Shown here: positions 7,501 to 61,888 of the stretch, one piece after another
How the letters are laid out: every line of letters begins with the position of its first letter
How positions within the stretch are numbered: the stretch's first letter is position 1
Assembly: GCA_019925095.2 (NCBI GenBank)
Contig: CM034405.1
Coordinates: 10,488,401-10,552,400, forward strand
DNA length: 64,000 nucleotides
Source of the DNA: Dendrolimus kikuchii
Lineage: Eukaryota > Arthropoda > Insecta > Lepidoptera > Lasiocampidae
Reading direction: 5' to 3'
Notes under the pieces: model-generated
What the model was told of the DNA's origin: nothing
What the model saw: only the letters and a program-made list of their open reading frames with translations
Database searches by the model: none
Made by a program: the position numbers and the translations under genes

Positions 7501-10500
7501 TTTTTAATATAAAAAATACTGCTAAAATTACGAGTTAAATTATATTAGTAAAGATATTTTTTTAGAACCTTATTAATTTAACATCTGTGGATACGTGTTG
7601 ATTTATAGTTCTAATACTACTAGTGGTCGCCCAGTGGTCGTAAATCGACCATAATTATTAATTTAAATTATAAGGTTGAACATTATTAGGATTCTATTGT
7701 CAAAGACTATACTTCTATAATTACGGATTTCACCAAGGATACACTGTTAATTTAATTTGGCTTTATCAATAAATAAAAGAGTATATATGCGTGTGTGTGT
7801 CAAATACATGCTAGTGTGTGTAATGTTATTTTTATTGATTTAATGTATTTTATATGCGTAATTATAAAAAAATATTAGCATTCTGTACTCCCTCTCTATA
7901 TAAACTATAAATGTGCGAAATTTCATACTCCTCCGTCCGCGCAATTTTCGTAAAAAAATTTGTACCCCAAGTTTTTGCTTCACGTATTAATATAATGATG
8001 TACCTATAGGTAAAATTATAAAGTCGAAAGTAATTTTTAAGTAGGCAGTACTGTTTTGGTCTAAAAATATGTTTTAAATAATAAAATGTTCGTAGAATGT
8101 GGGTATTTTCTATATAAAAATGCAAGAGAAAATAGTTGTGGGAATATTAAAAAAGAGAGAAATTAGGGCTTTTTTCCAGTTCTTCTAGACAACTGCCATA
8201 CCTCCACGACAGTAACGTCGACAGGGAAAGCCCTATTTAGAAATTGTAATATTGAGAACTATCCAATATAGTCAATATATAGTACGCTCTTTCATCTTGT
8301 TACAGATGCCGGCGAAATTGCCGAAATGCCATTCTTCCTCGCCGGACTCATCATGTGTGGGGGTTTCTTCATGATGTACTTAATTGAAGAACTAGTCCAT
8401 CTTTACATAAATAGCAAAGAGACTAAGACCCCCGTCGATATCAGTTCTACAAGGTCGTTCAGCCATAGGCATAGCACAGCTGACGTCGAAGGATCGTCTG
8501 ATGAGCAAATGACAACAGCAGCAAAGACTAAAGAGTTAGAAAGCGTACAAAATAACGGCCATAGCCATTTGGTAGTTACTTCGAATGACGACTCTGTGGT
8601 ATCAGCGTTAAGAGGATTGTTAATTGTATTGGCTTTGTCTATACACGAATTATTTGAAGGACTAGCTGTTGGTTTGGAATCTTCTGTCGGCAACGTGTGG
8701 TAAGTGTGTTAGAATTGTAATGAAGTTCCCTATCGCACGTTACTCGGTTAATAAGATCTAATTTTTTTATTGCTGAAGCACAGCAGACAGGCTTACGGCC
8801 CAAATGTGGTGAAAAGTGGTTAAGATTACCGTCGCTTATGGGCATTATCAATACCAGAGGGGCTGCCATAGTCCTGCTGGCCTTGAAGGAGAAACTGCAA
8901 CCTGGCCACTGATGCAGGAACACAACTCAAGGTTGCTATGGCGGCATACTCTAGACCATGGGTGGTAGCCATCCAGTCGGGCAAATGCCTTACCACCTGG
9001 CGATGGGTTGTTTTGTCGCCTCTTACGACAGGCCGCCCGGTCGCAGGAATTGGTATTCTTTTACCGTTCCTGCACGCAAATAAATAATATCCATTGGTGT
9101 ATTAAACACTGTTTTGAAAATAGGCCTTGTAAACACTGTTGTTATTCGGCCGCAATTGGGCGCTGTCGCCGCTCATGTGTACATGTCTTTATATAATTTA
9201 ATATTTTTAACCGACTTGCAAAAGGAGGAGGTTCTCAAATCGAATGTATGTTTTTAACTTCGAGTAAACTTAACTTCGTGTTTTTAAAATATTATTAAGA
9301 ATTTGTAGGATGTAAATTCGAAATTGCCGTTGGAATTATCATAAAGTTTATTTGAAGTACAGACACGTAATTCACAGTTCTTACAAATCTAACCGAATAA
9401 AACAAAAGCAAACCGTTGCCGCCTACAAAAAATTACATCTCAAATGCGCGAAAACAACATTTGTTACTCCACACATTATGTCAGGGGCACTTCAAATGGT
9501 TATAAAATGTTGTATACGTATCACTCTCTTCGCTCTTGACGAGTACACAAGTTAAACGAACTCAAGCATTTTTATTTCAAAAATATCCTTATGTTATTCG
9601 TTAATCACATCAATCGCGCAAAGTCCGTCGTTATAAGATTCTCGCTCCAAAAGTACATTAGGTAAGTACGCTTCGATCGCAGTCGAAAGACGACTGACTC
9701 CTTGCTCAATTGTCCCTATCCCTTTGTACTAGACATGGCCTCGAAGCAATATGCCCCCACCATTCCTTTGAATTCTTATGGCTTCCATGAATCTCCTTGA
9801 AACACAAACAAGAGGAATTAGGTTTTTGAAAATAAATTAAAGAATATTAAGACTTTTTAGAAGACTTTTAGACTCATATTTTTATTTATTAAAGTAGTAA
9901 TTCGCTCGGAGATAATGTACGCGTGAGTTTAAATATCGATATTCCAACGTTGGATATCTGCAATTCCAAAACAAATAGCAAAATGTCAATGATTAATACT
10001 ATTTAGGGGGCCTCCATTAATTATGTGAGGCGATTTTTCGACCCTCCCTGGTGAGATATCGTGATATTGGTTCAACCCCCTCCCCATCCCCAAACTTTAC
10101 GTGAAATTTTTCAAAATGTCTAGTGTACCTGTATTGTATTTATTATAAAAAAAACAAAACATAATCTGCCTAATATTTTAAAGTAAGAAGTGCCATTATT
10201 TAATATTGCGTAGAACATAGGATAAAATTACATTGAGGTAGGTAATCTATAATATTATAAAATTGTAAATATGCCGTGTCTTTATATTGAAGGTATTTAA
10301 AAAAAAAAACTAAAATTGACTATATAAACGATGGAGAAGACGATGCAATTTTTTTAGATTTCTTGTCTGTTTCTCCGGGAGTCACGTAAAAACTACTGGG
10401 ATGATTTCGATGCGGTTTTTACTGATCATCATTGACAGCAAATTCTTAGACTTCAAATCTGTGCTTTTTTATCTCGGGAATACCGCAGGAATTTTTCTTG

Positions 10501-17390: not shown

Positions 17391-20300
17391 ATGGCTCCAA
17401 ACGAGAACTCGCAATTATTACTTCTTACTACGCGAAAAGAATACATATTTCGTGAAATACAAATATTATACGATTTATCGAATGATATTTTAATAAAAAA
17501 TAAAACTGGTATAGGAACATTTAAAAGTAGATACAAACGTATTGAATCTATTCGTTTAGAATTCATAGAGGTAGTGAACGAAATTAATCAGTTAATCCTA
17601 AAAATGGATCCAGAACAAACAATTGACTACAAATGTGTAGAATCTTTCGATACATTGTACTATGCCGTTCATGCCGCAGCGCACGAATTATTGCCGTCCG
17701 CGTCGCCCGTGGATCGAAGTGGCGGCACCGGCGCGCTAGCCTCCGCCAGCGCGGGAACAGATGCAAAGTTAAAACCTAGCGCTCAAGCAAGGCTACCTAA
17801 AATTGAATTGCCCAAATTTGATGGAAACATAGAATTATGGCAAACATTTTATGATACATTCTTATCACTTATACACGATAACATAAACTTGTCTGCTATC
17901 GAAAAATTCCATTACCTATTGTCTAGCCTTTCAGGATCAGCCTTGTCGGTGGCCAAGGGGGTGCCAGTAACAGCAAACAATTATAGCATAGTTTTTGATG
18001 CTCTTATTAACCGTTTTCAAAATAAACGTATATTGGCAACTAATTATTTAAATAAAATTTGTAATTATCCAACAATGAAATTTTGTAACTTAAATGAATT
18101 GAGAAACATGACTAGTGTACTATATGAATCAGCTAATGCTCTCAAGGCTATTGGTATCCCAGACTTAGGTGAATTCATTTTATTTTATTTAGCTTCATGC
18201 AACCTGGATAATGATACCCGTAAACGTTTTGAATCTCAAAACTTTGAACAACTTCCCACTTTTGAGAATTTACTAAGTTTTTTACAAAGCTATGTCAAGA
18301 TATTGGAGGCAAGTGAACCTAGTGTTACACGAACACAACACATGATCAATCCGCAAAGGATTCAGCAGCGAACACCTAACTATAGAAATGCAGACACTCG
18401 TACCAGGACTTACAATCAAGAAAAACGTTCTGTGTCTTTGCCAGTTAATGCAGATACGTATTCAGATTCGAACACAATTAATGTGGATTCACATACATAC
18501 CCAGGGCCGTACTTGGATTGTATGACACCTGAAAACACAGGGCCGTACTTGGATTCCATGTCATATTCTAATACAGGTCCGTACTTCGACTCCATATTAT
18601 GTAACACTACAGGGCCGCACTCTGATTTTGAACCATACCAAGAAGCAAACCCAAATTATAATTTGACAGGTGAGTGCCCACCTACGGGGACGTACTCAGC
18701 TGCAGTTTCATATAATATCAATAAATTTCCTGACTGTGTTTGTTGTGGTTTTTCTCATCATGGTATTTATAAATGCCCATTATTTTATGCTTACAATTTA
18801 ATGGGTCGGAAAAAACTTGTTGCGGCAAAACAACTTTGCACTAACTGTCTACGTCCAAACCACAGTGTTGATAAGTGCCAGTCAAAATCTAATTGTACTA
18901 AGTGTAATGCACGCCACCATTCTTTGTTGCATGAATCCCATCCAGTGATTGCCGCAACTAGTAAGTCCAGTAGTGAATCAGAACCCTCTTCTCTGCCATT
19001 AAACTCCGCGGTTACTATGAACTCCATGAGCACTAGTGCATACGTCGGCGATAGTCTGGCAATGGTAATTCTCGGTACATGTAGAGTACGCGTGCGTGGT
19101 CCGGGCGGGACCCTGAAAATTCGTGCCCTTATTGATAGCGGGGCGCAAGACTGCTTTATGACAACCGCTTGCGCAAGGCGTCTCGGTTTACCCATTCGAC
19201 GATGTAATATTACCGTGGCTGGCTTAGGTCAAAACGCCGTGCATAAAATTCAGGGAATAACATCATGTTCAGTACAGCCACAAGATGTTGATAATCCAAG
19301 TTTTCATATTAACCCAATCATTATGGATACAATAACTAATAAGATGCCGTCTATAGAAATAACTCCTGATGTTCGAAAATCATGTAAGCATTTGGTATTT
19401 GCTGACGAAGAATTTGATAAACCGAACGATATTGATCTTCTTCTGGGTGCGGAATTATTTCACGAATTCTACGATGGGCGTCGTCTGGAATTGGGTCCTG
19501 GTCTCCCAGTTGCATTACATAGTGTGTTTGGCTGGGTGATCACTGGTAAATTGGAGTCAAGTCATCGACCGCCACATAATACAACCTCTTCGCTTTTAAC
19601 CACACTTGCCCTTGACCAGACAATAAAGCGATTTTGGGAAATTGAAGAACCACCGGTGGCAGAAATTAAAAACCCGGATGATGAAAAATGTGAGCAGTTG
19701 TATTCCAAGTTAGTGACTCGGAATCCAGATGGTAGATACGTAGTTCCGATATTGCTTAAGGAACCTACTGACGTCTTAGGAAACTCGTATACTTCATCCT
19801 TAAAACGTCTATTCAATCTTGAGAGACGGTTCGTGCATAATAGAGAGTTGAAAGAAAATTATATTAACTTTATGCGGGAATATTCTAATTTAGACCACAT
19901 GAAACTCGTCGAGCGACCCATGCGTACCTCAAACATCATACCTCATCATTGTGTCGTGAGACCAGATAGTTCTACTACAAAGCTCAGAGTTGTATTTGAT
20001 GGTAGCGCGAAGACTTCAAATGGCAAAGCACTAAATGATCTCGTTTATATTGGCCCAAAACTTCAAAATGACATAGTGGATATAGTCACAAAGTTTAGAA
20101 TTCCAAAAGTTGTGTTTACAGCGGATATTTCAAAAATGTACCGAAATATTCAACTAAGACCTGAAGATCGAATCTATCAGCATATCCTATGGCGTGATTC
20201 CTCAAATGATCCTGTTAGTGAATTCGAACTTACCACGGTTACATATGGCGTGAGTAGTTCGCCTTATTTAGCCATTCGCACTTTACATCAACTAGCGGAT

Positions 20301-22922
20301 GACCATGGAGCGCAATGGCCTCAAGCGGCTGCCATTCTTAAACACGATACATTCATGGATGATATTACTGCTGGAGCGCCTTCTTTGGAAGAAGCTGTTA
20401 AATTAAAAACAGAACTGGTTGACTTACTAGATTGTGGAAAGTTTGAGCTAAGAAAATGGAGTAGCAATTCACTAGAATTTTTATCTGAATTACCAATAGA
20501 CCACTGCCAAATACCGAAGCCCTTTTGTGATGAAAGCAATCAACATACCCTTAAAATACTTGGCATCCAGTGGGATCCCTGCCAAGATCGGTTTACTTAT
20601 ACAATGTCAGAATTGGACAAGAAATGTACGAAACGCATAATTTTGTCCAACATCGCTCGTATTTATGACCCTCTTGGTTGGTTGACACCAGTAGTACTTA
20701 TAGCAAAGTTGTTAATGCAACAACTCTGGCGACTTCAGTTGCAATGGGATGAGCCTGTTCCTAATGAAATTCAACTACAGTGGCTAAATTTTTGTTCCGA
20801 ATTACAAAATCTACATAAAGTTCAGATCCCTCGTAGAATTATTACTTCCACTACAACCAGCTTCGAACTTATTGGCTTTAGCGATGGCTCCATGAAGGCT
20901 TATGGGTGCTGTATTTATTTGCGCTCATCAGATTCCATCAGAACGCTCTCTCACTTGCTTATCGCCAAGTCTAGAGTCGCACCGTTGAAGTTACTAACCG
21001 TTAACCGCTTGGAACTTCTTGGCGCAGTATTGTTAGCTCGTGTCTTGAAACATATGTTTCAGTTGCTTCACCCACTAATTGCAATTTCTAAAGTGACCGC
21101 GTTCACAGACAGTAGTACTGTGTTAAGTTGGCTACATATTCCTCCATATAAGCTGAAGACGTTTGTTTCGCATCGTGTCATTAAGGTTGTTGACAATATA
21201 GGAATAGAAAACTGGCAACATGTTTCTTCGCATGACAATCCTGCAGATTTGTGTAGCCGAGGTTCGAGCTGCTCAGAAATCGTATCGTCTTCAACCTGGT
21301 GGAATGGGCCGAAATGGCTAATCAATGATGTTGAGAGTTGGCCAGTTCAAAAACAATATATATCAATGGATAACATACCAGAACTCAAGAAACCATCTAA
21401 TACATCGCTTGTCCTTGTCAATTCAGAAGAGACTACCTTCATTTCAAATATGCTAGACAGAAGTTCATCGTTTTCACGTACAAAGCGCGTTATAGCTTGG
21501 TGTCTACGCTTTATTAACAACGCAAAATGCAATAAATTAGCGCGCATTACTTCTGGATTGACTACTGATGAACTAGAAGTGGCACTTCGGATACTAGTAA
21601 AAACAGAACAAACCAAAGGGTTTTCTGAAGAAATTAATTACATCAAGAGGCAGGCAAACTGTAGCCGTGCTATACAGAAACTTAATCCTTATATCGATGA
21701 AATGGGTCTTCTACGAGTAGGTGGGCGACTTAAAAACTCTTGTTTACCACAAACTGCGATTAATCCTTTGCTATTACCTAAATCGTCTCGTCTGTCTTTA
21801 TTGTTGATTGACTATTTTCATCGACTTTATTTACATTGTGGACCCCGTACTTTACAATCCCTGATACTGAGGAAATTTTGGATATTGGGTATCCGCAATT
21901 TGATTCGCTCGCGTTTGTCGAAATGTGTAACATGTTTCAAGGTCAATCCAAAAATTAATCATCCTTTGATGGGAGACTTACCACCTTCTAGAGTTCAACC
22001 TTCAAGATGCTTTCAAAATATCGGAATCGATTTTGCAGGACCATTTTATGTTAAGGAAAGTCGTAGACGAAACGCTCGTATTAACAAAGCATATATCTGT
22101 GTGATAGTATGTTTGGCAGTTAAGGCCATACACATAGAGGTCGTTTCGGATTTGTCGACCCCTGCCTTCATCGCAGCTCTAGATCGATTCGTGTCCCGTC
22201 GTGGCCTCTGCAATCAGATCGTATCAGATTGTGGTACGAACTTTGTAGGAGCTCAGCGGTACTTGAGTGAAGTTAATCATTTTTTAGTAAATTCTCAAGA
22301 AGAAATCTGTGAGAATTTGGCAAAACGTCAAATCATTTGGAATTTTAATCCTCCCACGGGGAGTCACTTTGGTGGAATATTTGAAAGTGGTGTAAAATCA
22401 ATAAAATATCACTTAAAACGTGTAGTGGGTTTACAGGTACTTACCTTCGAAGAATTGAGTACAGTAGTTACAAAAATTGAAGCTGTCCTAAATTCACGTC
22501 CACTTTGTGTGATATCTTCGGATCCTAATGAAGTTGATGTTCTGACACCTGGTCATTTTCTGACTGGAGGTCCGTTAGTGGCTCTACCTGAACCTCCATT
22601 GGAAAAAAAACACATATCTGCTCGTGAGCGATGGCAAATGGTACAAAAAATTACTCAATGTTTTTGGCGTATTTGGCAACGGGATTACCTTCATACCCTC
22701 CAGCAAAGATTAAAATGGTTCCATGATCAGGAAAATTTAAAAATTGGAGATGTAGTAGCGATTGTGGATCAAAATATTTCTCCGCTAGAATGGCGTCTAG
22801 GAAAAGTAGTTGCTATTCATCCTGGTTCGGACGGTATAGTACGTGTTGTTACACTACGCACTGAAAAGGGCATTTTAAAACGACCGGTTGTAAAAGTATG
22901 TCCCTTGCCTCTATCCGATTAA
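17391..22922 (+). CDS. BEL/Pao Gag-Pol polyprotein, intact
   Basis: 1843 codons without a stop. Order seen: Gag-like region with KIELPKFDGNIELWQTFYD at about residue 136; four 12-residue repeats near 371-418; three CCHC-type zinc knuckles near 449, 483 and 502; aspartic protease ALIDSGAQDC near 578; reverse transcriptase with RVVFDGSAKTSNG (about 866), FTADISKMYRNIQL (907) and the catalytic FMDDI (987); RNase H with FSDGS (1163) and FTDSS (1238); integrase with an HHCC finger (about 1470-1515), GIDFAGPF (1545), VSDCGTNF (1610) and GSHFGGIFE with the catalytic Glu (1660); a C-terminal domain to the stop. All catalytic residues are present, and this together with near-identical LTRs suggests recent or continuing activity. 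ATG at 17391 is the first in the frame. Confidence 0.95.
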   Translation: MAPNENSQLLLLTTRKEYIFREIQILYDLSNDILIKNKTGIGTFKSRYKRIESIRLEFIEVVNEINQLILKMDPEQTIDYKCVESFDTLYYAVHAAAHELLPSASPVDRSGGTGALASASAGTDAKLKPSAQARLPKIELPKFDGNIELWQTFYDTFLSLIHDNINLSAIEKFHYLLSSLSGSALSVAKGVPVTANNYSIVFDALINRFQNKRILATNYLNKICNYPTMKFCNLNELRNMTSVLYESANALKAIGIPDLGEFILFYLASCNLDNDTRKRFESQNFEQLPTFENLLSFLQSYVKILEASEPSVTRTQHMINPQRIQQRTPNYRNADTRTRTYNQEKRSVSLPVNADTYSDSNTINVDSHTYPGPYLDCMTPENTGPYLDSMSYSNTGPYFDSILCNTTGPHSDFEPYQEANPNYNLTGECPPTGTYSAAVSYNINKFPDCVCCGFSHHGIYKCPLFYAYNLMGRKKLVAAKQLCTNCLRPNHSVDKCQSKSNCTKCNARHHSLLHESHPVIAATSKSSSESEPSSLPLNSAVTMNSMSTSAYVGDSLAMVILGTCRVRVRGPGGTLKIRALIDSGAQDCFMTTACARRLGLPIRRCNITVAGLGQNAVHKIQGITSCSVQPQDVDNPSFHINPIIMDTITNKMPSIEITPDVRKSCKHLVFADEEFDKPNDIDLLLGAELFHEFYDGRRLELGPGLPVALHSVFGWVITGKLESSHRPPHNTTSSLLTTLALDQTIKRFWEIEEPPVAEIKNPDDEKCEQLYSKLVTRNPDGRYVVPILLKEPTDVLGNSYTSSLKRLFNLERRFVHNRELKENYINFMREYSNLDHMKLVERPMRTSNIIPHHCVVRPDSSTTKLRVVFDGSAKTSNGKALNDLVYIGPKLQNDIVDIVTKFRIPKVVFTADISKMYRNIQLRPEDRIYQHILWRDSSNDPVSEFELTTVTYGVSSSPYLAIRTLHQLADDHGAQWPQAAAILKHDTFMDDITAGAPSLEEAVKLKTELVDLLDCGKFELRKWSSNSLEFLSELPIDHCQIPKPFCDESNQHTLKILGIQWDPCQDRFTYTMSELDKKCTKRIILSNIARIYDPLGWLTPVVLIAKLLMQQLWRLQLQWDEPVPNEIQLQWLNFCSELQNLHKVQIPRRIITSTTTSFELIGFSDGSMKAYGCCIYLRSSDSIRTLSHLLIAKSRVAPLKLLTVNRLELLGAVLLARVLKHMFQLLHPLIAISKVTAFTDSSTVLSWLHIPPYKLKTFVSHRVIKVVDNIGIENWQHVSSHDNPADLCSRGSSCSEIVSSSTWWNGPKWLINDVESWPVQKQYISMDNIPELKKPSNTSLVLVNSEETTFISNMLDRSSSFSRTKRVIAWCLRFINNAKCNKLARITSGLTTDELEVALRILVKTEQTKGFSEEINYIKRQANCSRAIQKLNPYIDEMGLLRVGGRLKNSCLPQTAINPLLLPKSSRLSLLLIDYFHRLYLHCGPRTLQSLILRKFWILGIRNLIRSRLSKCVTCFKVNPKINHPLMGDLPPSRVQPSRCFQNIGIDFAGPFYVKESRRRNARINKAYICVIVCLAVKAIHIEVVSDLSTPAFIAALDRFVSRRGLCNQIVSDCGTNFVGAQRYLSEVNHFLVNSQEEICENLAKRQIIWNFNPPTGSHFGGIFESGVKSIKYHLKRVVGLQVLTFEELSTVVTKIEAVLNSRPLCVISSDPNEVDVLTPGHFLTGGPLVALPEPPLEKKHISARERWQMVQKITQCFWRIWQRDYLHTLQQRLKWFHDQENLKIGDVVAIVDQNISPLEWRLGKVVAIHPGSDGIVRVVTLRTEKGILKRPVVKVCPLPLSD
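18502..18645 (+). repeat. Four 36-bp tandem repeats inside Gag
   Basis: CAGGGCCGTACTTGGATT-type units start at 18502, 18538, 18574 and 18610, exactly 36 bp apart; protein units read TGPYLDSMSYSN and variants. The fourth unit is more diverged. Confidence 0.85.
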
Positions 22923-46700: not shown

Positions 46701-49700
46701 TTCGACCACAGACTAATCTTTAAGATTAACGCAGATGAAGAGCCAGCGTAAGGGAAATATACGCACTTATTGCATGGCAATACGCAGATGCCGCAACACT
46801 TCTCCATTCCGGATAAATTTTTCTCAGCCTCGCGCATATCCGCGTTGATCTGGTCCATTCCCTCCTCAATCCTGTCCAATTGCTCTGTTCACACAAACCA
46901 ATCGCATGCTTTAGAAGTGCCCTTTAAAAAACCCTTTCGAAAATGTGTTTGAAGCTCCTAAACTTTCCAATTTATAATCGCGATTTTAATTTTCTTCTCA
47001 ATGATTTCATTTTTATGTAAATTCTCAACGCTCTCGACAATAACCAGAGCTAAGTGTAAGACATTAATATGTTCATGGTTACAATGTTTTTAACGAACTA
47101 GTTATATCCATGCAAGCTTTTTAATCATCGACTACAGCAAATCTATTTCAGTACTATATATTTAAAGCAACTATTACTTTGTTATATTTGTCGCTGTGTA
47201 TTTCTGTGTATGTCTTACACTTGATCCGGTCAAATCTAAAATTTGCTCTTTAATTTTCATTAAAATGATGTATGTGCTTGATACTAAGTTATTACATTAC
47301 CGTACTCGTAGTTACTAACATCTAGAATAGTATTAAATTTTTATTAAATACTAAAAAATCATGCAATCAACAGCAAGATTGAAGAAATCGTGCATAGCTA
47401 GATGCGTGAGGAAAATTAAAGAAAATAATTACTATTCAACTAATCAGAATCTCATTGTCCCGTATCTCGATCAAAATGCGGGAACGTAGAGAAAAATCAA
47501 TGCAGTTTATTAAATATTCTTATTTATTCAATGATCATGACAGTTTTACCTTATTTTTAATCCGTTAGAAACATATTGTTAGCACTCAATTGATATATAT
47601 TTTAATTTCAAATTCACCATTCAACAATGTCGAATATAAATTATCTGAACTGGCATTTCAGACAGAAGCTTTACTAAATTATGAGTGATGCAAAATATTA
47701 GGTACTACTGGATGCTTACCGCCCTGTTCATCCAGCATGACCAGGGTTTTCATGCCCACCTCGTGACTCTACAACACAATAATGATGTCACTATAGCTCG
47801 CCAAACGAATGCGGTGAGGAGTCGGGAGCGGCGCGCGCGCAGCCGACGCGCAGCGAGCGCGGCGGAGCGCGGACGCCGCGCGGGACAACTCTTACCAACA
47901 CAACTCAAACTGATAACTGAACATAAATAAAAAGAACGCGTCGACATGGAGGCGGCGGGTCGCGCCGGCCACCCCCGCGTCGCCGCGGTACAAAACAAAT
48001 CAACTTAGCAAATGAGCGTTTCCATTAAGCCATTCCTAAATGATACGTGAATGTAGCAAAGTATTAATTTAGTCGAAGAAGATAAATGAACAAACTAATA
48101 TAAATATGTAGTGTGGCGAGGAGCGAGCGGCGAGCGGCGCGCGGAAGCGGCGCCGCCTGCCTCGCTGGGACACAAATATCGCATCGAGCTAACAGTTGCA
48201 GACCTACAGTCTAACATTAACAGTACGCTGCTAGCCATGGAGATGAAGGCGTATACCATATACTCTATACGTCGAACAGACATCGGTAGACGCGCATTCA
48301 TATCAGTACCGCAGTATAAAATTACGAGAAGAGATAGTAGATTCGGAAAGATAAATAAATGATACCTAGAAAAAGCGTTCCGGTCGATATATATCAACGG
48401 AAGAACTAAACAGATTGCGCAGCTCATTCAAATTAAATCTTCAGCAAAAGATAGAGTACAGTCTTTTGCGACAATTAGCAACGAACGGCCATTGGGCTTA
48501 TCTATTTACACTATGTTTTTAAAAGTCATCCCCATCGAAACATAGATACACACGCAACATCGATCGAGAAGTCGTTATTCAAGAGAAACGTCAAAGAAAA
48601 ACAAAGAGATTATATATATTTATTTAACTGCACATTCAAACACAGACGTTCTCACGGCTCGACTACCCATGTGTCAGTTTTAACTCTTACCGCCCTGGTG
48701 ACTCAACATATGAAGCGCTTGCCCCCCGGCGTCCTCGCTCTATACATAAAATACAAATCAAAATAATATATCGTAGGAGATAGTATCGGGGTGTGTGGGT
48801 GGGTCGTGGTGCGGTGCGCCGGTAGGGTACGGCACGCACGAGATGCGCGCGAGTGCGGTGCGGCAGCTGGGCGGCGGCGTGACGCGGACGCGCTACGGGC
48901 GACGGGCGGCTGGCGGCGTGCGGCGCGGCGGCGTGCGGCCGGCGAGCGCCGCGGGCGGCTTCGCCCCTGCGCGCGCCGCCCGCGACCTCCGCCGCTAACA
49001 CACACTACTCGATCCACAACGACATGCATGCAGTGAAGCTTGCAAGTAAAACCAGATTCAGTTTCATCTGTGCTTAGTTTCATATGAATCATGATATTTC
49101 TGTGTGTTGTTAGAGTCGTGCGTTGAGGAGAAGCGTTTCGAATTTACTTTGCTCGATTATTTAGATTCGTTTTATGTGATTTAGGTAAAGTTGGTATTTA
49201 AGAGTCGAGTACGAACATCTGAAATGCAGAATGTATAAGTATCGCCCCAACCGAATATACAGTTTGTATCATGTCAACTCGTTGGTCTTGCCTGACGTCG
49301 TAGAAGAAAGAGCTCATTGTTAAGTTGTGCAAAGTGGTGTATAAAATATCTACATAATGAATAGATGTCATACAAAGATGTGGGTTCCGTGATAGTCGCG
49401 TTGATAACTGTGTCAGTATTAAAGGCTAATCGAAGGTTTATCGAAGGATGCCCGCACCTTTGCATTGAAGTTATAGCAGTGACGTAATTTTAAATAAATA
49501 ATATTAATGGGATACCCCCTCAATCTCTTCTAGCCCGGTGAGCCCTGCTTCGGGTCGGCTGAAAACCCTACGATGCTCAACAAAGTTAGCGAAAAAGGTA
49601 AAATAGATAAAATTGTAAATAATGTAGTGTTGCAAATTTTGCAGATCACTCACCTCCCTGGTCGTCTAGAGCGACCAGAGTACGAATGCCGGCCTCCTTG

Positions 49701-52700
49701 CTCTACGCCGCAGAAACAAAAAGTCACAGAGCATGTTAGTTGTGAGGGGTACAGTGGAATGAGTGGATGGTGGCGGAGCTCGCGCTCGTGCGCCGTGGCG
49801 GTGCTCGTTGAACACATGTGCCTCGAGTACATCTTCCACCCATTGTTAGTAACCATACAGTGTCCCAACAGGGAGAATATCCTTGACGTGCTAAACTACA
49901 TTATTTATTCGTTACGAGGATTGCAAGTCAAGTGCATATTCTCCCAAGTTTGTTCTGTGATGTTTGTGAGTATGAAGAGTATGTAATGTGTTATATCACC
50001 GTTGAATGTATTTATTTTCTTACAGACAAACCCATATACCATATTTAATATGATAAAAAAGTATGATTAGGATTATAATGATGTTGTGTATAAGTATTGG
50101 CATTGAAAATTATAATTATTTATTGTAAGTATATCTACAAATAAATATATGGGAACTGAAATAAAGGTAATGTGGTTACTGTTAAAAATTGGTCTGTATT
50201 TTGTGTGAGAGTTTTAATTAGGTGTAGCTCGATATATTTGTTGGAGTTCAGTGGCAGGTACGAGAGTGTGTACACGCCCATATTGACAGTATTGTGAATG
50301 TTCGAGAAGGCATGAAAATCATACAACATAATAGATTTACAGTCAACAACAGAGCAGCCACTACACAGAGACCTACGATACAGATTCAACTAAAACAGGA
50401 AAAAACGAACATCAACATACACTGATCGAGATATTAGCACATAAAGTTAACGACCACTTCATAGATCAGTTAGTGTTGGCATGTTTCAATAAAGAGGCAT
50501 TGAAGAGGAAACGAATAAACGTAGAATTTTAGATAGAAAATAAGGAAGTAGTAGATGGTGCGTTTGAAAGACGTGAGCCTCGGTGGCTGAGGTGGATTCG
50601 GTAAAGAACTTTAAGTGTTATAAGGGTATCATTTCGAAAGCAAGCCCAAGCACAACGGTCAGACTATAAAAGATTGAAAAGCGCACGAAATCAAGTCATA
50701 TCACGTACTAAAGGGATTACTAAAGTCAGAGAAGTATCGATTCTAAATATGGGCTTGGACTATCTCTATCATGGTCGATGGTGGACTTCATGCTTTGGAA
50801 CCTAATAACAGCGAACGGGCGACATTCCTTGGGAGCTGACGGTTAAGATTTTACTTTTCGTTCAAAAATTTGCCTCTGTTAAATTATTACAAAATTAATG
50901 ATGTTACATTGTGATTTTATAAATAACTGTCAGCACCAAGCCGAGAGCCGGGCGGGAGGGCCCAAAATGGTTAAATAATTATCACAAAAATGTACAGTTC
51001 ACTACCAACAACACAAAGGGCTATAGAGGTCTAACATTTTCGGACACAGTAAGGCACGGATCATGCAACACCCATATATGGTATGGTTATAATAATATAT
51101 TTAATATGTGGAAATGAAACAAAAATGATACAAAAAAGGATTTAATGACTGGAGAGCTAAGATAGATATACACATATACAATAAATAATAGATAAAATAA
51201 AAATATTTAGCGACATCGAAACACAACAGCCAGGGTTAGCAGAGGCTGCGCCCTAGGGGGTACATTGGGACGGGCGTCGGAGACCAACCGAGCTTGGGGC
51301 TATCCAGGACACATCCGCTATACCCCTCACTCCCTCGAATCGAGAACACCTCTCTCACAGATGATTAACATAACCAACCAAATAATTCAACATAATTAAA
51401 CTTTCAGGGGAAACTGAACGTAACTGAAACGCGTCTGCATATAAGAGACCGCACAGTTCTATCATCTAAATATTATCTAATTTGAATCTCTCAAGGGGAA
51501 CTTCCAGTATTCTCGTACGCTTGGAAAATTAATACAGTTTAATACAAATCATCATTATATATTCAATCTTAATAAATAACAGTTATAATCTATTTTATTT
51601 GTAGAAGATGATATAAAAACAACTGTGTCCAGAATTTCAAATTCAATTATATTACAAGTTTCCATATCAACTTCTTAAAAAAGGGGACAAGGGACTATAA
51701 TTGATCAGAAACACAATTTTCAATGAAAATGGTTACGGTTATTTTTTTTCTATTTTTGGATTATTGAACTGTGATGAAACACATAAAGCACCAAGTCAAA
51801 ATACATTTGTAAGTATCATTGGATATATGATTATATTCATTATTTTATACTAAATTATTAATATAATTTTAAATTATTAATAAATAATTATCATAAAATT
51901 TGCATTTACGCAAACTCACCTCTTCACATAGGTTCATCATACGTCGCGTGGCCTCGAGCGACTGAAATTTCATAAATTAAAGCATTAATAAAATTTACAC
52001 ATTACACCTAAAAAAATCCAGTGTCCGTAACATTCTTAGGGCAAATTTAATCAATATTTACTGAAAAATTAAATAACTAACTAACTACTAATAAATTAGC
52101 TAACTTCTAAACCCGACTATAAAATCAGAGTTATGTATAAGTATATTATAATATCTTGTGTAGATTTTATGTCTGCACATTTCATACATTTTAATGGTTC
52201 CTTAAACAGATTGGCAAAAACGGCACCCTTATGAAATTGTAATGTTCCTCCGTCCACGGATCTATGCATGACAGTAATCCATAGCCATTTTTCTCAAACA
52301 TTACTGGATCTAAATCACTAAATTAATGAAATTGGACGGGAAAGTGTAGTTATATGATCGACCTATGCACATAGGCATCTGGTGTACAGGTTTTGCTTAC
52401 TTTTCTTTGACTCACAGTGGGGGATGTCGAATCGGATGGAAAGCGAATCCCATTTGTTTATTATTGAGAAGCGAGCAAACAGGCAGACGGCTCATTTAAT
52501 CGCCTATAGACGTCTGCAACACCGGGCACGGAGCCAATGCGTTGCTAGCTTTAGGATGGGAAAGACGGATTTGAGAATAAAAATGGGATAAAAGGGATCG
52601 GATAGGTGAATGGTATAGAGGGATGGGCAACGAGTAAAGTGGGCCATCGGAGCTCTTACTCACACTCATACGAAGCGCGATTAGCTCAAGGCTAGGCCGC

Positions 52701-55092: not shown

Positions 55093-57957
55093 ATGAGTTC
55101 TCCGTCTGCAGGGAATGGGCCTACTGCATCACAAGTCGACGTCCAATGCCCCCACTGCTCCCAGTCACGCTTTTTTAAAGGACATCGAGGCCTCAAAATT
55201 CACTGTAGTAAAAAATACAAAATCGTATACACTAACTCGGCTCCCGTGGCCTTACAACCAAACACAAGTACTCCACCAAATCCTCAAGTTAATAAAGAAC
55301 CTCTGTGGAAACTACTACCAAAATTAAAGAAAAATAATCCAGTATTAAAAAGAATCCCTCGTGGTGCAAGAATTTCGGCGTGCCATACCGTATCAAAATT
55401 AATTCAAACCGTTTTGGCCCAAAATTCCGTAAGCTGGGAGCAACTTTTAATGTTTCCTTATCTGATATTCCATATAAATAAAGATCAAGATAAAAAAATA
55501 TCATTAACACAAAAAATTACAAATAATTATTCTATTTTGGATAATAACTCCCAAATTTTCTGTGTAAATAACCCTCAAAGCTGCTCCCCAAATCGTCTCC
55601 GTAACAATTTGGCTATATTCCATATTGTAGAAAATAAACTTAATGACGGGGACATTAGAGGAGCAGCTCGCTTATTATTTTTACTGATGCAGTAGCACCA
55701 AACTCTGCAGATACGCTAACTGCCCTACGTGACAAACATCCACCTTCATCGCCGGAAACTGTATTCCCGGCTCCACCAGACTCACAGAGCGCACTGGTTG
55801 TTACTATTGTTCCAAAGTGGCTCTGCCGGGGGCCTTGACGGTCTGACGCCCCAACACCTCAAGGACTTAATAGGATTAGGATGCGGGGAGGCCCGTGAGT
55901 TACTTTTGAGGAATCTGACGGCATTGGTTAATTTTATGCTATCAGGGAAGGTTGTAAATGAAATTACTGACATCCTTTATGGTACCAAACTGTGCGCTCT
56001 GAAGAAAAAGGATGGGGGAATAAGACCGATCGCAGTAGACACGGTGTACCGCCGCCTCGCAGCTAAGTGTTGTTGTAAGAAAAAAGCTGAATACTTAAAA
56101 TTATACTTTCAGCCCAACCAGCTGGGTTTTGGTTCGCGGGGGGGCTACGAGGCGGCTGTCCACGCTTTACGCAAATTCCTCCAACAAAATGGTGGAGATT
56201 TAGTACTGAAGGTGGATGTTAAGGACGCCTTCAATTCAGTTGATCGATCTGCCTTGCTCTCACAAATTAAAGACCAAATTCCAGATTGTTACCATTTTCT
56301 TTGGCAATGCTATAGTCAAAATTCAAAATTAATATTTCAAGACAACGTACTTTATTCAAAAACTGGATGCCAGCAAGGCGATCCGTTAGGACCGGCCATT
56401 TTTAGTTTAGCAATTCATCCCATCATTACACGTTTGAAATCCAAATTTATTGTATGGTATCTAGATGATGGCACTTTAGGAGGTGAAGTAGATGACGTTT
56501 TAGAAGATTTTACCATTCTAAAAAAAGAACCTAAAACCATAGGACTTGAAATAAATTTAAACAAATGCGAATATTATATCAGCAACACAGAATGTAAAAC
56601 TGAAATAATCTCTAGACTAAATACAATAGCACCGGGAATTAAATTAGTAAACAACTCCTCACTTCATCTCCTAGGTGCCCCAATCTTCGACGAGTCAATA
56701 CCTAACTACGTCAAAGAAAATATTAAAAATTTACGTGAAAGTTCAGATCGTTTACTCCAAATTAATACAAATATGGCCTACACTATTATCCGATACTGCC
56801 TTTTCGTGCCCAAATTTACATACGCCCTCCGATGTTGCCAACTCTGGAAACAAACCTCTCTTTTACAGACATTGGACAACATCGTGAGGGATACCCTCAT
56901 ATGCATCATAAATTTAGAAATGGACGACCGTGCATGGTCACAGCGTTCTCTCCCGGTAATACTGGGTGGCCTCGGCGTCCGCAAACTCTCCAGTGTCGCT
57001 CTGCCAGCTTTTCTGTCATCGGCTTACAGTACGCGTGATTTAGTATTCAAAATTTTACAAAAGATCAATTTTCAGTTCGAAATTCCCTATTTAACCGATG
57101 CCCGAAGAGTTTGGTCAATGGCTTGCCCTAACGTCAATTTACCTACTGTCCTTACTTCACAGCATGCCTGGGATGGGCCGCTCTGCGAACTTACGCGGGA
57201 TAATCTTCTACAAACGTGTACCAGTTCAGCAGAGCGCGCCCGCCTCTTAGCCGTCGCTAATTGGGAGTCTGGACAGTGGTTAGAAGCACACGCATCATTT
57301 TATAATAATACACTTCTGGACAACACTACATTCCGATTAGCCGCGAGCTTACGCCTGGGGGCACCATGTTGCGTACCACATCACTGTCAATGTGGAGTTA
57401 TGGTAGACCGATTTGGACACCACAGGTTGTCATGTTTAAAAACCGCAGGAAGAAGATCTCGTCATGCCAGCCTCAATGACATCATTTGCCGAGCTCTTGT
57501 CAGCGTCGGCGTCCCGGCCATTCTGGAACCGAATGGCCTGGTGCGTGACGATGGCAAGAGACCGGACGGAATGTCACTCGTCCCTTGGAAGATGGGGCGG
57601 TCGCTAGTGTGGGATGCGACCTGTGTTGACACACTGGCCCCGTCACATCTTCCAATGACCGAGTCAGGGGCTGGCAACCCTGCCGCTTTAGCTGAGGACG
57701 TCAAACGGCGCAAATATGGAGCCTTAGGAAGGGGTTACATATTTGTGCCGTTTGGGGTTGAAACATTAGACCCGTGGGGTCCGTCGGCAAAGAGTTTCTT
57801 TAAAGACATATGTAAGAAACTCTTTGACACTACCCGTGATCAGAAGGTTGGCTCATATTTTGCACAACACATAAGTATTGCCATACAGCGTGGCAATGCA
57901 GCCAGCCTTCTGGGCACGCTCCCCGTTGGCAGTGATCTGCTACATAATGTATTTTAG
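55093..57957 (+). pseudogene. R2-superfamily (restriction-like endonuclease) non-LTR retrotransposon, nearly complete
   Basis: From ATG at 55093: N-terminal C2H2-like finger (QCPHCSQSRFFKGHRGLKIHC, split here as QCPHCSQSRFF and KGHRGLKIHC), a conserved region to about 55680, then reverse transcriptase (GLDGLTPQHLKDL at 55830; KVDVKDAFNSVD at 56213; QQGDPLGPAIFS at 56373; catalytic YLDDG at 56458), a cysteine/histidine knuckle (HCQCGVMVDRFGHHRLSC near 57383) and a PD-(D/E)xK-type endonuclease (RPDG...WDATCVD at 57559-57630), ending at TAG 57957. A single-frame protein of about 950 residues is expected, but about 130 bases (55680-55815) are out of frame between two shifts, so it is inactive. 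The domain order is that of the R2/R4/NeSL group; which clade is not settled. Confidence 0.8.
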
Positions 57958-60653: not shown

Positions 60654-61888
60654 GGTTGGGGAAAAAGTCTTTTCGCATATAGTATGTATGAACTTGTAAT
60701 AAGATCTCTTTGGCTATACCATTTGTATCTGGCTGGTTTTGGTATCATTAAAAAGTTTTAATTTTAAAGAAGACAATTCCAAATTCAAATTCGGAAAATG
60801 TGTGATTTTCATTTGTTTTTCTTATTGTTAAAATGAGATACATTTTAAAATTTTACTACAAAAAAGGTAAAAATGCAACACAAGCCGCGAAAAAAAATTG
60901 TGATGTTTATGGACCTAATGCAGTATCTGTGAGAGTAGCGCAAATTTGGTTTAAGCGTTTTCAATACGGAAATTTTGATATCAAAGATGCACGTCGCTCT
61001 GGTCGCCTTGTTACGGACAAAATTGATGCCATTTTTTAAAAAGTGGAGCAAGATTGGCATATTAGTAGTTACGATGTAGCTGAAGAACTGGGAATTGACC
61101 ACAAAACGGTTTTGGCGCATTTGAAAAAAGCTGGGTACACAAAAAAGCTCGATATTTGGGTGCCTCATGAGCTCACGGAAAGAAACCTAATGAACCGTGT
61201 ACTCATTTGTGATTCTTTATTACGAAGTAATGAAACCGAACCGTTTTTGAAGAAGCTGATAACTGGTGATGAAAAGTGGATCACGTACGACAAGAACGTG
61301 CGAAAAAGATCGTGGTCAAAGGCCGGTCAGGCTTCATAGACTGTGGCGAAACCTGGGTTAACTCGCAACAAGGTGATGCTGTGTGTATGGTGGGATTGGA
61401 AAGGCATTATTCATTATGAGCTGTTACCGCCACGCAGGATCATCGATTCTGAACAGTACTGCGAGCAACTGATGAGATTAAAGCAAAAACTTGAGAGAAA
61501 GCGGCCGGAATTAATCAACAGAAGGGGTGTGGTTTTTCACAATGATAACGCTAGACCTCACACATCTTTAGCCACTCAGCAAAAATTACGAGAGTTTGGC
61601 TGGGAGGTGTTAATGTATCCGCCGTATAGTCCTGACCTTGCACCTTCAGATTTTCACCTGTTTCGGTCTCTGCAGAATTCCTTAGGCAGTGTCAGGTTAA
61701 CATCACGAGAGGACTGCCAAAACCACTTGTCGCAGTTTTTTGATCAGAAGCCCCAAAATTTTTATAGCAATGGGATCACGTCCCTACCTACAAGATGGCA
61801 CCTACATACTTTAGTCAAATGTAAATAAACTTTATAAAAAAGCCTTTTGAATTTTTATATAAAATGCGAAGAAACTTTTTCCCCAACC
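60654..61888 (+). mobile_element. Full-length mariner element
   Basis: 1235 bp. Left end GGTTGGGGAAAAAGTCTTTT and right end (reverse complement) GGTTGGGGAAAAAGTTTCTT are imperfect inverted repeats; TA flanks both (60652-60653, 61889-61890). Contains one transposase gene. Confidence 0.92.
60833..61828 (+). pseudogene. mariner (DD34D) transposase with two nonsense codons
   Basis: One continuous frame from ATG 60833 to 61828 apart from TAA at 61037-61039 and TAG at 61337-61339. Paired-type DNA-binding part (QIWFKRFQYGNFDIKDARRS; ELGIDHKTVLAHLKKAGYTK), WVPHELTERN linker, catalytic Asp in TGDEKWITYD, second Asp in FHNDNARPHTS and third Asp in PPYSPDLAPSDF, exactly 34 residues apart as in classical mariner. 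The C terminus is altered after SLPTRW, probably by a small deletion. Inactive, but young: no frameshifts in the main body. Confidence 0.92.

Follow-up and report, generated by a model that had tools for sequence, protein, structure and literature searches.

A 64,000-nucleotide (nt) stretch of the lepidopteran Dendrolimus kikuchii (the window; positions 10,488,401 to 10,552,400 of contig CM034405.1, 36% G+C overall, from an assembly of 705 Mb) carries on its minus strand a SNAP-25 gene in which the third coding exon is present in three tandem versions, 3a, 3b, and 3c. SNAP-25 is at the core of the machinery that fuses vesicles with membranes and is central to neurotransmission. The best explanation of our observations as a whole, to which we give a probability of roughly 0.75, is that these are three alternative, frame-locked exons and that the choice among them most likely tunes the coupling of the SNARE complex to a sensor. 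The copies would go back to a single 49-nt exon that was duplicated in tandem long ago, a working messenger RNA (mRNA) would take one of them between exons 2 and 4, which would make them functionally mutually exclusive, and each choice would exchange residues 39 to 54 of the first SNARE helix.

The gene product is a SNAP-25 (i.e., a Qbc SNARE), with two SNARE motifs, zero-layer glutamines, and a cysteine linker. It aligns with solved SNAP-25 across residues 8 to 210, including both helices and the CCGICVLPC linker, and PF00835 was matched in all three isoforms scanned. Across the 705-Mb assembly, PF00835 matched this locus only (2 candidates scored); no second SNAP-25-like gene was thereby found, although a Snap24-like paralogue may exist.

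Each copy has AG directly before it and GT directly after it, starts in phase 0, ends in phase 1, and lies between exons 2 and 4; the copies are homologous, adjacent, and equal in length and phase, with intact splice sites. Joined singly to exon 2 (ending at 51920) and exon 4 (starting at 46884), 3a, 3b, or 3c gives an open frame, and the three copies combined with either of two alternative last exons, 7a and 7b, give six open frames of 211 or 212 residues. The frame is shifted when all copies are skipped and in all four multiple inclusions tried (two or three copies). Single-copy inclusion alone keeps the frame, and therefore a functional mRNA should hold one copy, whereas skipped or doubled products would lose the frame. 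A preliminary description of this DNA had reported three 49-nt minus-strand segments with these borders and phases, separated by introns of 914 and 922 nt, and had read them as tandem, frame-locked versions of one SNAP-25 exon. The coordinates, borders, and intron lengths proved correct, and the joined-exon tests agree with the frame locking; the alternative last exons were not mentioned there.

Pairwise identity is 32/49 nt and 10/16 residues between 3a and 3c (13, 13, and 5 of 16 at codon positions 1, 2, and 3), 25/49 nt and 7/16 residues between 3a and 3b (8, 11, and 5), and 28/49 nt and 7/16 residues between 3b and 3c (8, 12, and 7). Agreement is lowest at codon position 3 in all three pairs, and the divergence among the copies is therefore consistent with coding sequence. 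A chance motif is ruled out by a count of all 339 AG-N49-GT frames on both strands of the window, in which the three copies agree with the core at 7, 6, and 7 of 7 positions and the remaining 336 at no more than 3, and by 20 Markov-1 random windows, in which the best such frame matches 4 of 7. Pseudo-exons are ruled out by the conservation of the copies. It is also very improbable that 3b and 3c are defunct leftovers of exon duplication in this lineage. Such decay would fit the identity of only 7/16 residues between 3b and 3a in a case that, for D. kikuchii, is built on genomic sequence, but the frames are open, the AG and GT sites are intact, the divergence is biased to third positions, and both peptides recur unchanged in other species (3b in proteins of four lepidopteran species and 3c in several insect orders).

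Distribution of the exon types and probable single-copy use

Three protein searches were made with 42-residue regions, around 3b (171 matches among 190 candidates), around 3c (489 of 509), and at the 7b end (320 of 348), and the best 120 were taken from each. The pooled set comprises 252 different proteins that represent 90%-identity clusters, and the counts below are lower bounds, uninformative on absence. All 16 residues of the 3b peptide are identical in Papilio xuthus (P0001), Choristoneura fumiferana (P0002, a genome model containing both 3b and 3c), Cydia pomonella (P0003), and Cydia fagiglandana (P0004). The 3a peptide stands directly before the exon 4 anchor in at least 28 of the 252 proteins and the 3c peptide in at least 21.

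The three types are not confined to Lepidoptera. Peptides that we count as type b occur in mayflies, stick insects, a katydid, a cockroach, bugs, thrips, beetles, wasps, bees, an ant, flies, and a caddisfly, as well as in crustaceans (Daphnia, a crab, crayfish, and barnacles). Species of Lepidoptera, Hymenoptera, Coleoptera, Orthoptera, and stick insects share an identical type c peptide, of which flies, aphids, and thrips have variants. The type a peptide is likewise unchanged across numerous insects and in the crustaceans Daphnia magna, Cherax, and Panulirus. Comparison with other Lepidoptera had been proposed as a check; made here at the protein level, it confirms conservation in that order, although the framing was incomplete, as the types extend to many insects and some crustaceans. 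All three types are present in Cloeon (a mayfly), Copidosoma (a wasp), and Bacillus rossius (a stick insect). More than one exon 3 peptide occurs under 22 of 103 hand-typed name labels (one label being "?"), including three molluscs and Photinus, the latter with two near-identical b peptides rather than two types. The Photinus pyralis peptides (P0045 and P0048) differ at residue 51 alone (N or K), which may reflect an allele, a copy, or an error. Among the listed proteins, the centipede Strigamia and two species of horseshoe crab each have one ancestral-like peptide, and others may exist. The sample thus places types a and b in Pancrustacea, which would imply an age of more than 400 million years. 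Exon order in read-through genome models (a-b in Cotesia congregata and Cloeon, b-c in Choristoneura, and a-c in Aphis and Exocentrus) agrees with the order in the window.

Counted with one pattern in which the layer positions were restricted, exon 3 copies number one in 231 of the 252 proteins, two in 5 (P0002, P0020, P0028, P0121, and P0122), and none in 16. The two-copy proteins are all genome annotation, not transcripts, and have additional residues between one copy and the next, P0122 having at least LS. Among the best 120 of 171 matches from the 3b-region search, 18 are b-type frames on lgn/jgi contigs of 935 to 2,519 bases; these frames encode 197 to 231 residues, all begin with M, and one (P0050) has V at residue 44. 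The contigs are probably complementary DNA (cDNA) assemblies or spliced mRNA, because a gene whose coding exons span, in the window, 17 kb (ending at 7a) or 24 kb (ending at 7b) cannot fit on them unspliced. These counts also bear on the possibility that the extra copies mainly serve to reduce SNAP-25 output via frame shift and nonsense-mediated decay, as the shift on skipping and in all four multiple inclusions would allow. We regard such poison exons as improbable: most database proteins with the exon contain a single copy, and the copies are conserved as protein with their layer residues kept, which would not be required of an exon that acted purely as a poison exon.

Core layers and outward face of the exchanged segment

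The rat-type SNAP-25 of solved structures aligns without gaps through exon 3, which therefore encodes residues 39 to 54. Layers -4 to 0 of the helix, which we take to be S39, G43, T46, L50, and Q53 (rat numbering), are identical in 3a, 3b, and 3c apart from A in place of T46 in 3b. The outward faces differ: an acidic pair is retained at residues 51 and 52 in 3a and 3c, and 3b has E40, H48, and S-H at 51 and 52. The preliminary description had anticipated different cores in the fusion complex, which these residues do not support; the swap is more aptly described as leaving the core as it is and altering the outward face, with residues 40, 51, and 52 among those changed. With the layer residues on the inner side retained, every version should be able to assemble into a SNARE bundle.

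The same pattern was observed across species in a recount of distinct peptides, taken as the open 16-mer before the exon 4 anchor and classed by residues 40, 41, 42, 44, and 45. The anchor was present in 234 of 252 proteins and absent in 18; 4 of the 234 were unclassed, 3 of them not being exon 3 peptides. The 68 distinct b-type peptides largely keep the layers (S39 in 61, G43 in 64, T46 in 64, L50 in 64, and Q53 in 66). None has a basic residue at 40, 9 have V, I, or L at 48, and an acid is present at 51 in 21, at 52 in 8, and at both in 1. Both acids are present in 9/9 c-type, 4/4 a-type, and 15/20 other I/V44 peptides, and a basic residue at 40 is present in 0/9, 4/4, and 9/20, respectively. 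Entropy among b-type peptides is 0.2 to 0.6 bits at the layer positions; at residues 48, 51, and 52 it reaches 3.5, 3.0, and 2.5 bits.

In mammals, the calcium sensor is known to bind at this outward face. K40, D51, E52, E55, Q56, and D166 are named as the SNAP-25 side of the synaptotagmin-1 (Syt1) primary interface, with L47 and V48 at or near it (PMC8967716), and the primary-interface residues are said to be conserved across species (PMC9258623). The D51A/E52A/E55A change impairs C2B binding and lowers sodium dodecyl sulfate (SDS) resistance, with normal SNARE assembly (PMC4878868), and loss of the Syt1 C2AB-SNARE interaction was seen in an electron paramagnetic resonance test (PMC7859215). 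Most likely, exon choice would tune the coupling of the SNARE complex to Syt1 or another C2-domain partner, and 3b would be a version with weak coupling that serves different cells or modes of release. For the effect of the swap on sensor binding taken alone, sequence comparison suggests a chance somewhat short of even.

Several points weigh against this explanation. Type c peptides also have no basic residue at 40 (0/9), while 9/20 outgroup-like peptides have one, so that b is not distinguished by the loss of K40; moreover, SNAP-23 carries Q40 yet functions with Syt2 (PMC9258623). E55 is encoded by a common exon outside the swap, E52 is retained in decapod b-types, and b-type entropy is also considerable (2.2 bits) at residue 49, a position not named as a contact. 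The frequencies among b-type peptides are biased, since the sample was collected for its similarity to 3b of the window and a small residue 44 was taken as the mark of b. In D. kikuchii, where the case rests on genomic sequence and the binding effect on sequence comparison, we infer both the choice of one copy per mRNA and its tissue use.

There is, in addition, a substantial minority chance that the exons are true alternatives but that 3b acts through another partner (e.g., Doc2, rabphilin, Munc18/Munc13, or alpha-SNAP) or by changing the stability of the core (T46A, G44) rather than through lost Syt1 coupling. Several proteins use this surface: D51/E52/E55 has been linked to Doc2 as well as to Syt1, and rabphilin in a solved structure contacts E38/D41/R45 and D51/E55/R59, although binding of the full-length protein was unchanged by mid-SN1 mutants (PMC9522249). 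As for the core, 3b in the window has A at layer -2, but T46 is kept in 64 of 68 b-type peptides, which limits a core change to a few lineages.

Tuning of sensor coupling remains the explanation that we favor. A stronger version of it, which we hold rather unlikely, is that the exons form a very old pancrustacean switch between sensor-coupled 3a and 3c and a 3b uncoupled from Syt1, on the same SNARE core and together with two last exons. If this were true, one gene with a switch and two last exons would fill the roles that vertebrates divide among SNAP-25a, SNAP-25b, and SNAP-23. A conserved, genome-encoded SNAP-25 variant without part of the synaptotagmin interface would be a natural experiment, and loss of one 49-nt exon in an insect would test the interface in vivo with the SNARE core untouched.

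Gene structure, last exons, and intron features

The coding exons and the other features of the window are listed in the table. An acceptor AG sits 1 base 5' of the SNAP-25 ATG, and a noncoding exon should therefore lie further 5'.

Table. Features of the SNAP-25 locus and of the remainder of the window
Feature	Positions	Strand	Description
Coding exon 1	53112-53023	-	30 codons from ATG; tblastn and boundary analysis
Exon 2	51961-51920	-	42 nt, phase 0 to 0, 14 residues
Alternative exon 3a (copy 1)	49702-49654	-	49 nt, 16 residues and one base, donor GTGAGT
Alternative exon 3b (copy 2)	48739-48691	-	49 nt, 16 residues and one base, donor GTAAGA
Alternative exon 3c (copy 3)	47768-47720	-	49 nt, 16 residues and one base, donor GTAAGC
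Exon 4	46884-46767	-	118 nt; end of SN1 and cysteine linker; tblastn
Exon 5	44735-44607	-	129 nt; tblastn, PF00835
Exon 6	40858-40714	-	145 nt; bulk of SN2; tblastn
Alternative last exon 7a	36078-36016	-	20 residues and stop; tblastn and frame analysis
Alternative last exon 7b	28723-28658	-	21 residues and stop; tblastn and frame analysis
BEL/Pao-like retroelement	17391-22922	+	Long open frame (Pao peptidase, reverse transcriptase, integrase zinc-binding); opposite strand, downstream of SNAP-25
Reverse-transcriptase frame	55729-57957	+	
Mariner-type transposase fragment	61343-61828	+	
ZIP zinc transporter gene	1212-1574 and 8326-8703	+	Two exons

The choice between 7a and 7b alters the end of the second SNARE helix. 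The 7b peptide forms the C terminus of at least 15 of the 252 listed proteins, including those of the beetles Tribolium and Photinus, and in Parnassius and Brenthis models it is placed after a 7a-like tail. The exact 7a peptide of the window has no match among the 252 listed proteins; a 19-residue tail with one residue different is present in P0001, P0003, P0004, and P0210 (Papilio, both Cydia species, and Brenthis), and several flies have a more diverged tail. The alternative last exon is therefore likely old as well. The first poly(A) signal lies 1,294 nt past 7a and 116 nt past 7b, which is not informative.

Introns from exon 2 through 3a, 3b, and 3c to exon 4 measure 2,217, 914, 922, and 835 nt, and the lengths between copies rule out exclusion through introns too short to splice. 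We scanned six intron pairs for long complementary stretches against 60 local-shuffle controls, with no multiple-test correction. The best pairing (48987-48969 with 47838-47820; 19 nt, G+C-rich) brackets 3b with a score of 43.0, reached in 1/60 controls, and the second (50681-50660 with 49537-49516) brackets 3a and was reached in 5/60; the other four intron pairs were ordinary, with best scores reached in 39 to 58 of 60 controls. Coming from one species, these two pairings are leads only. G+C-rich islands (to 88% in 50-nt bins) lie at about 49000-48830 and 48160-47820 on the minus strand, upstream of 3b and 3c. The Choristoneura model P0002 translates residues rich in Ala, Pro, Gly, and Arg across the same intron; Choristoneura may therefore have a G+C-rich stretch there as well.

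Comparison with known systems

NCBI gene predictions already contain these exons as numbered isoforms (X1, X2, and so on). Among the papers listed by searches of an open-access library, no title or abstract opening on alternative exons of arthropod SNAP-25 was found, and the text of the Kassiopeia paper (PMC3923563) holds no mention of SNAP, syntaxin, or synap-. A three-way exon choice at a functionally loaded place of SNAP-25 is unusual.

The arrangement resembles the Dscam and srp exon clusters, in which one of several tandem, homologous, equal-length exons is chosen (PMC6071210); for a docking/selector RNA structure, the SNAP-25 cluster gives weak pairing leads. SNAP-23 differs from SNAP-25 on the same outward face (K40Q, L47I, and V48T; PMC8967716, PMC9258623), but the two are separate genes rather than exons, and SNAP-23 keeps both acids at 51 and 52 by the cited list. 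Mollusc SNAP-25 likewise has two versions of the 16-residue segment per product name (P0139 and P0208 in Mercenaria, P0172 and P0207 in Haliotis rufescens, and P0164 and P0176 in Patella), with D51 and E52 kept in both versions, in contrast to 3b. Given these mollusc versions, the exon may have been duplicated more than once, and their origin may be common or independent.

The closest parallel lies in the same gene. Vertebrate SNAP-25a and SNAP-25b, which differ at nine of 206 residues (PMC2581893), arise from mutually exclusive, tandemly duplicated exons 5a and 5b within SN1. The duplicated vertebrate exon encodes the last part of SN1 together with the cysteine linker, whereas the gene in the window triplicates the preceding 49-nt exon. 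By content, the counterpart of vertebrate exon 5 is exon 4, which a tblastn search of the window found once and thus not duplicated in the vertebrate manner; the exon 5 duplication is also reported to be absent from Drosophila (PMC2581893). The comparison would show one gene gaining alternative exons at neighboring places in different animal lineages.

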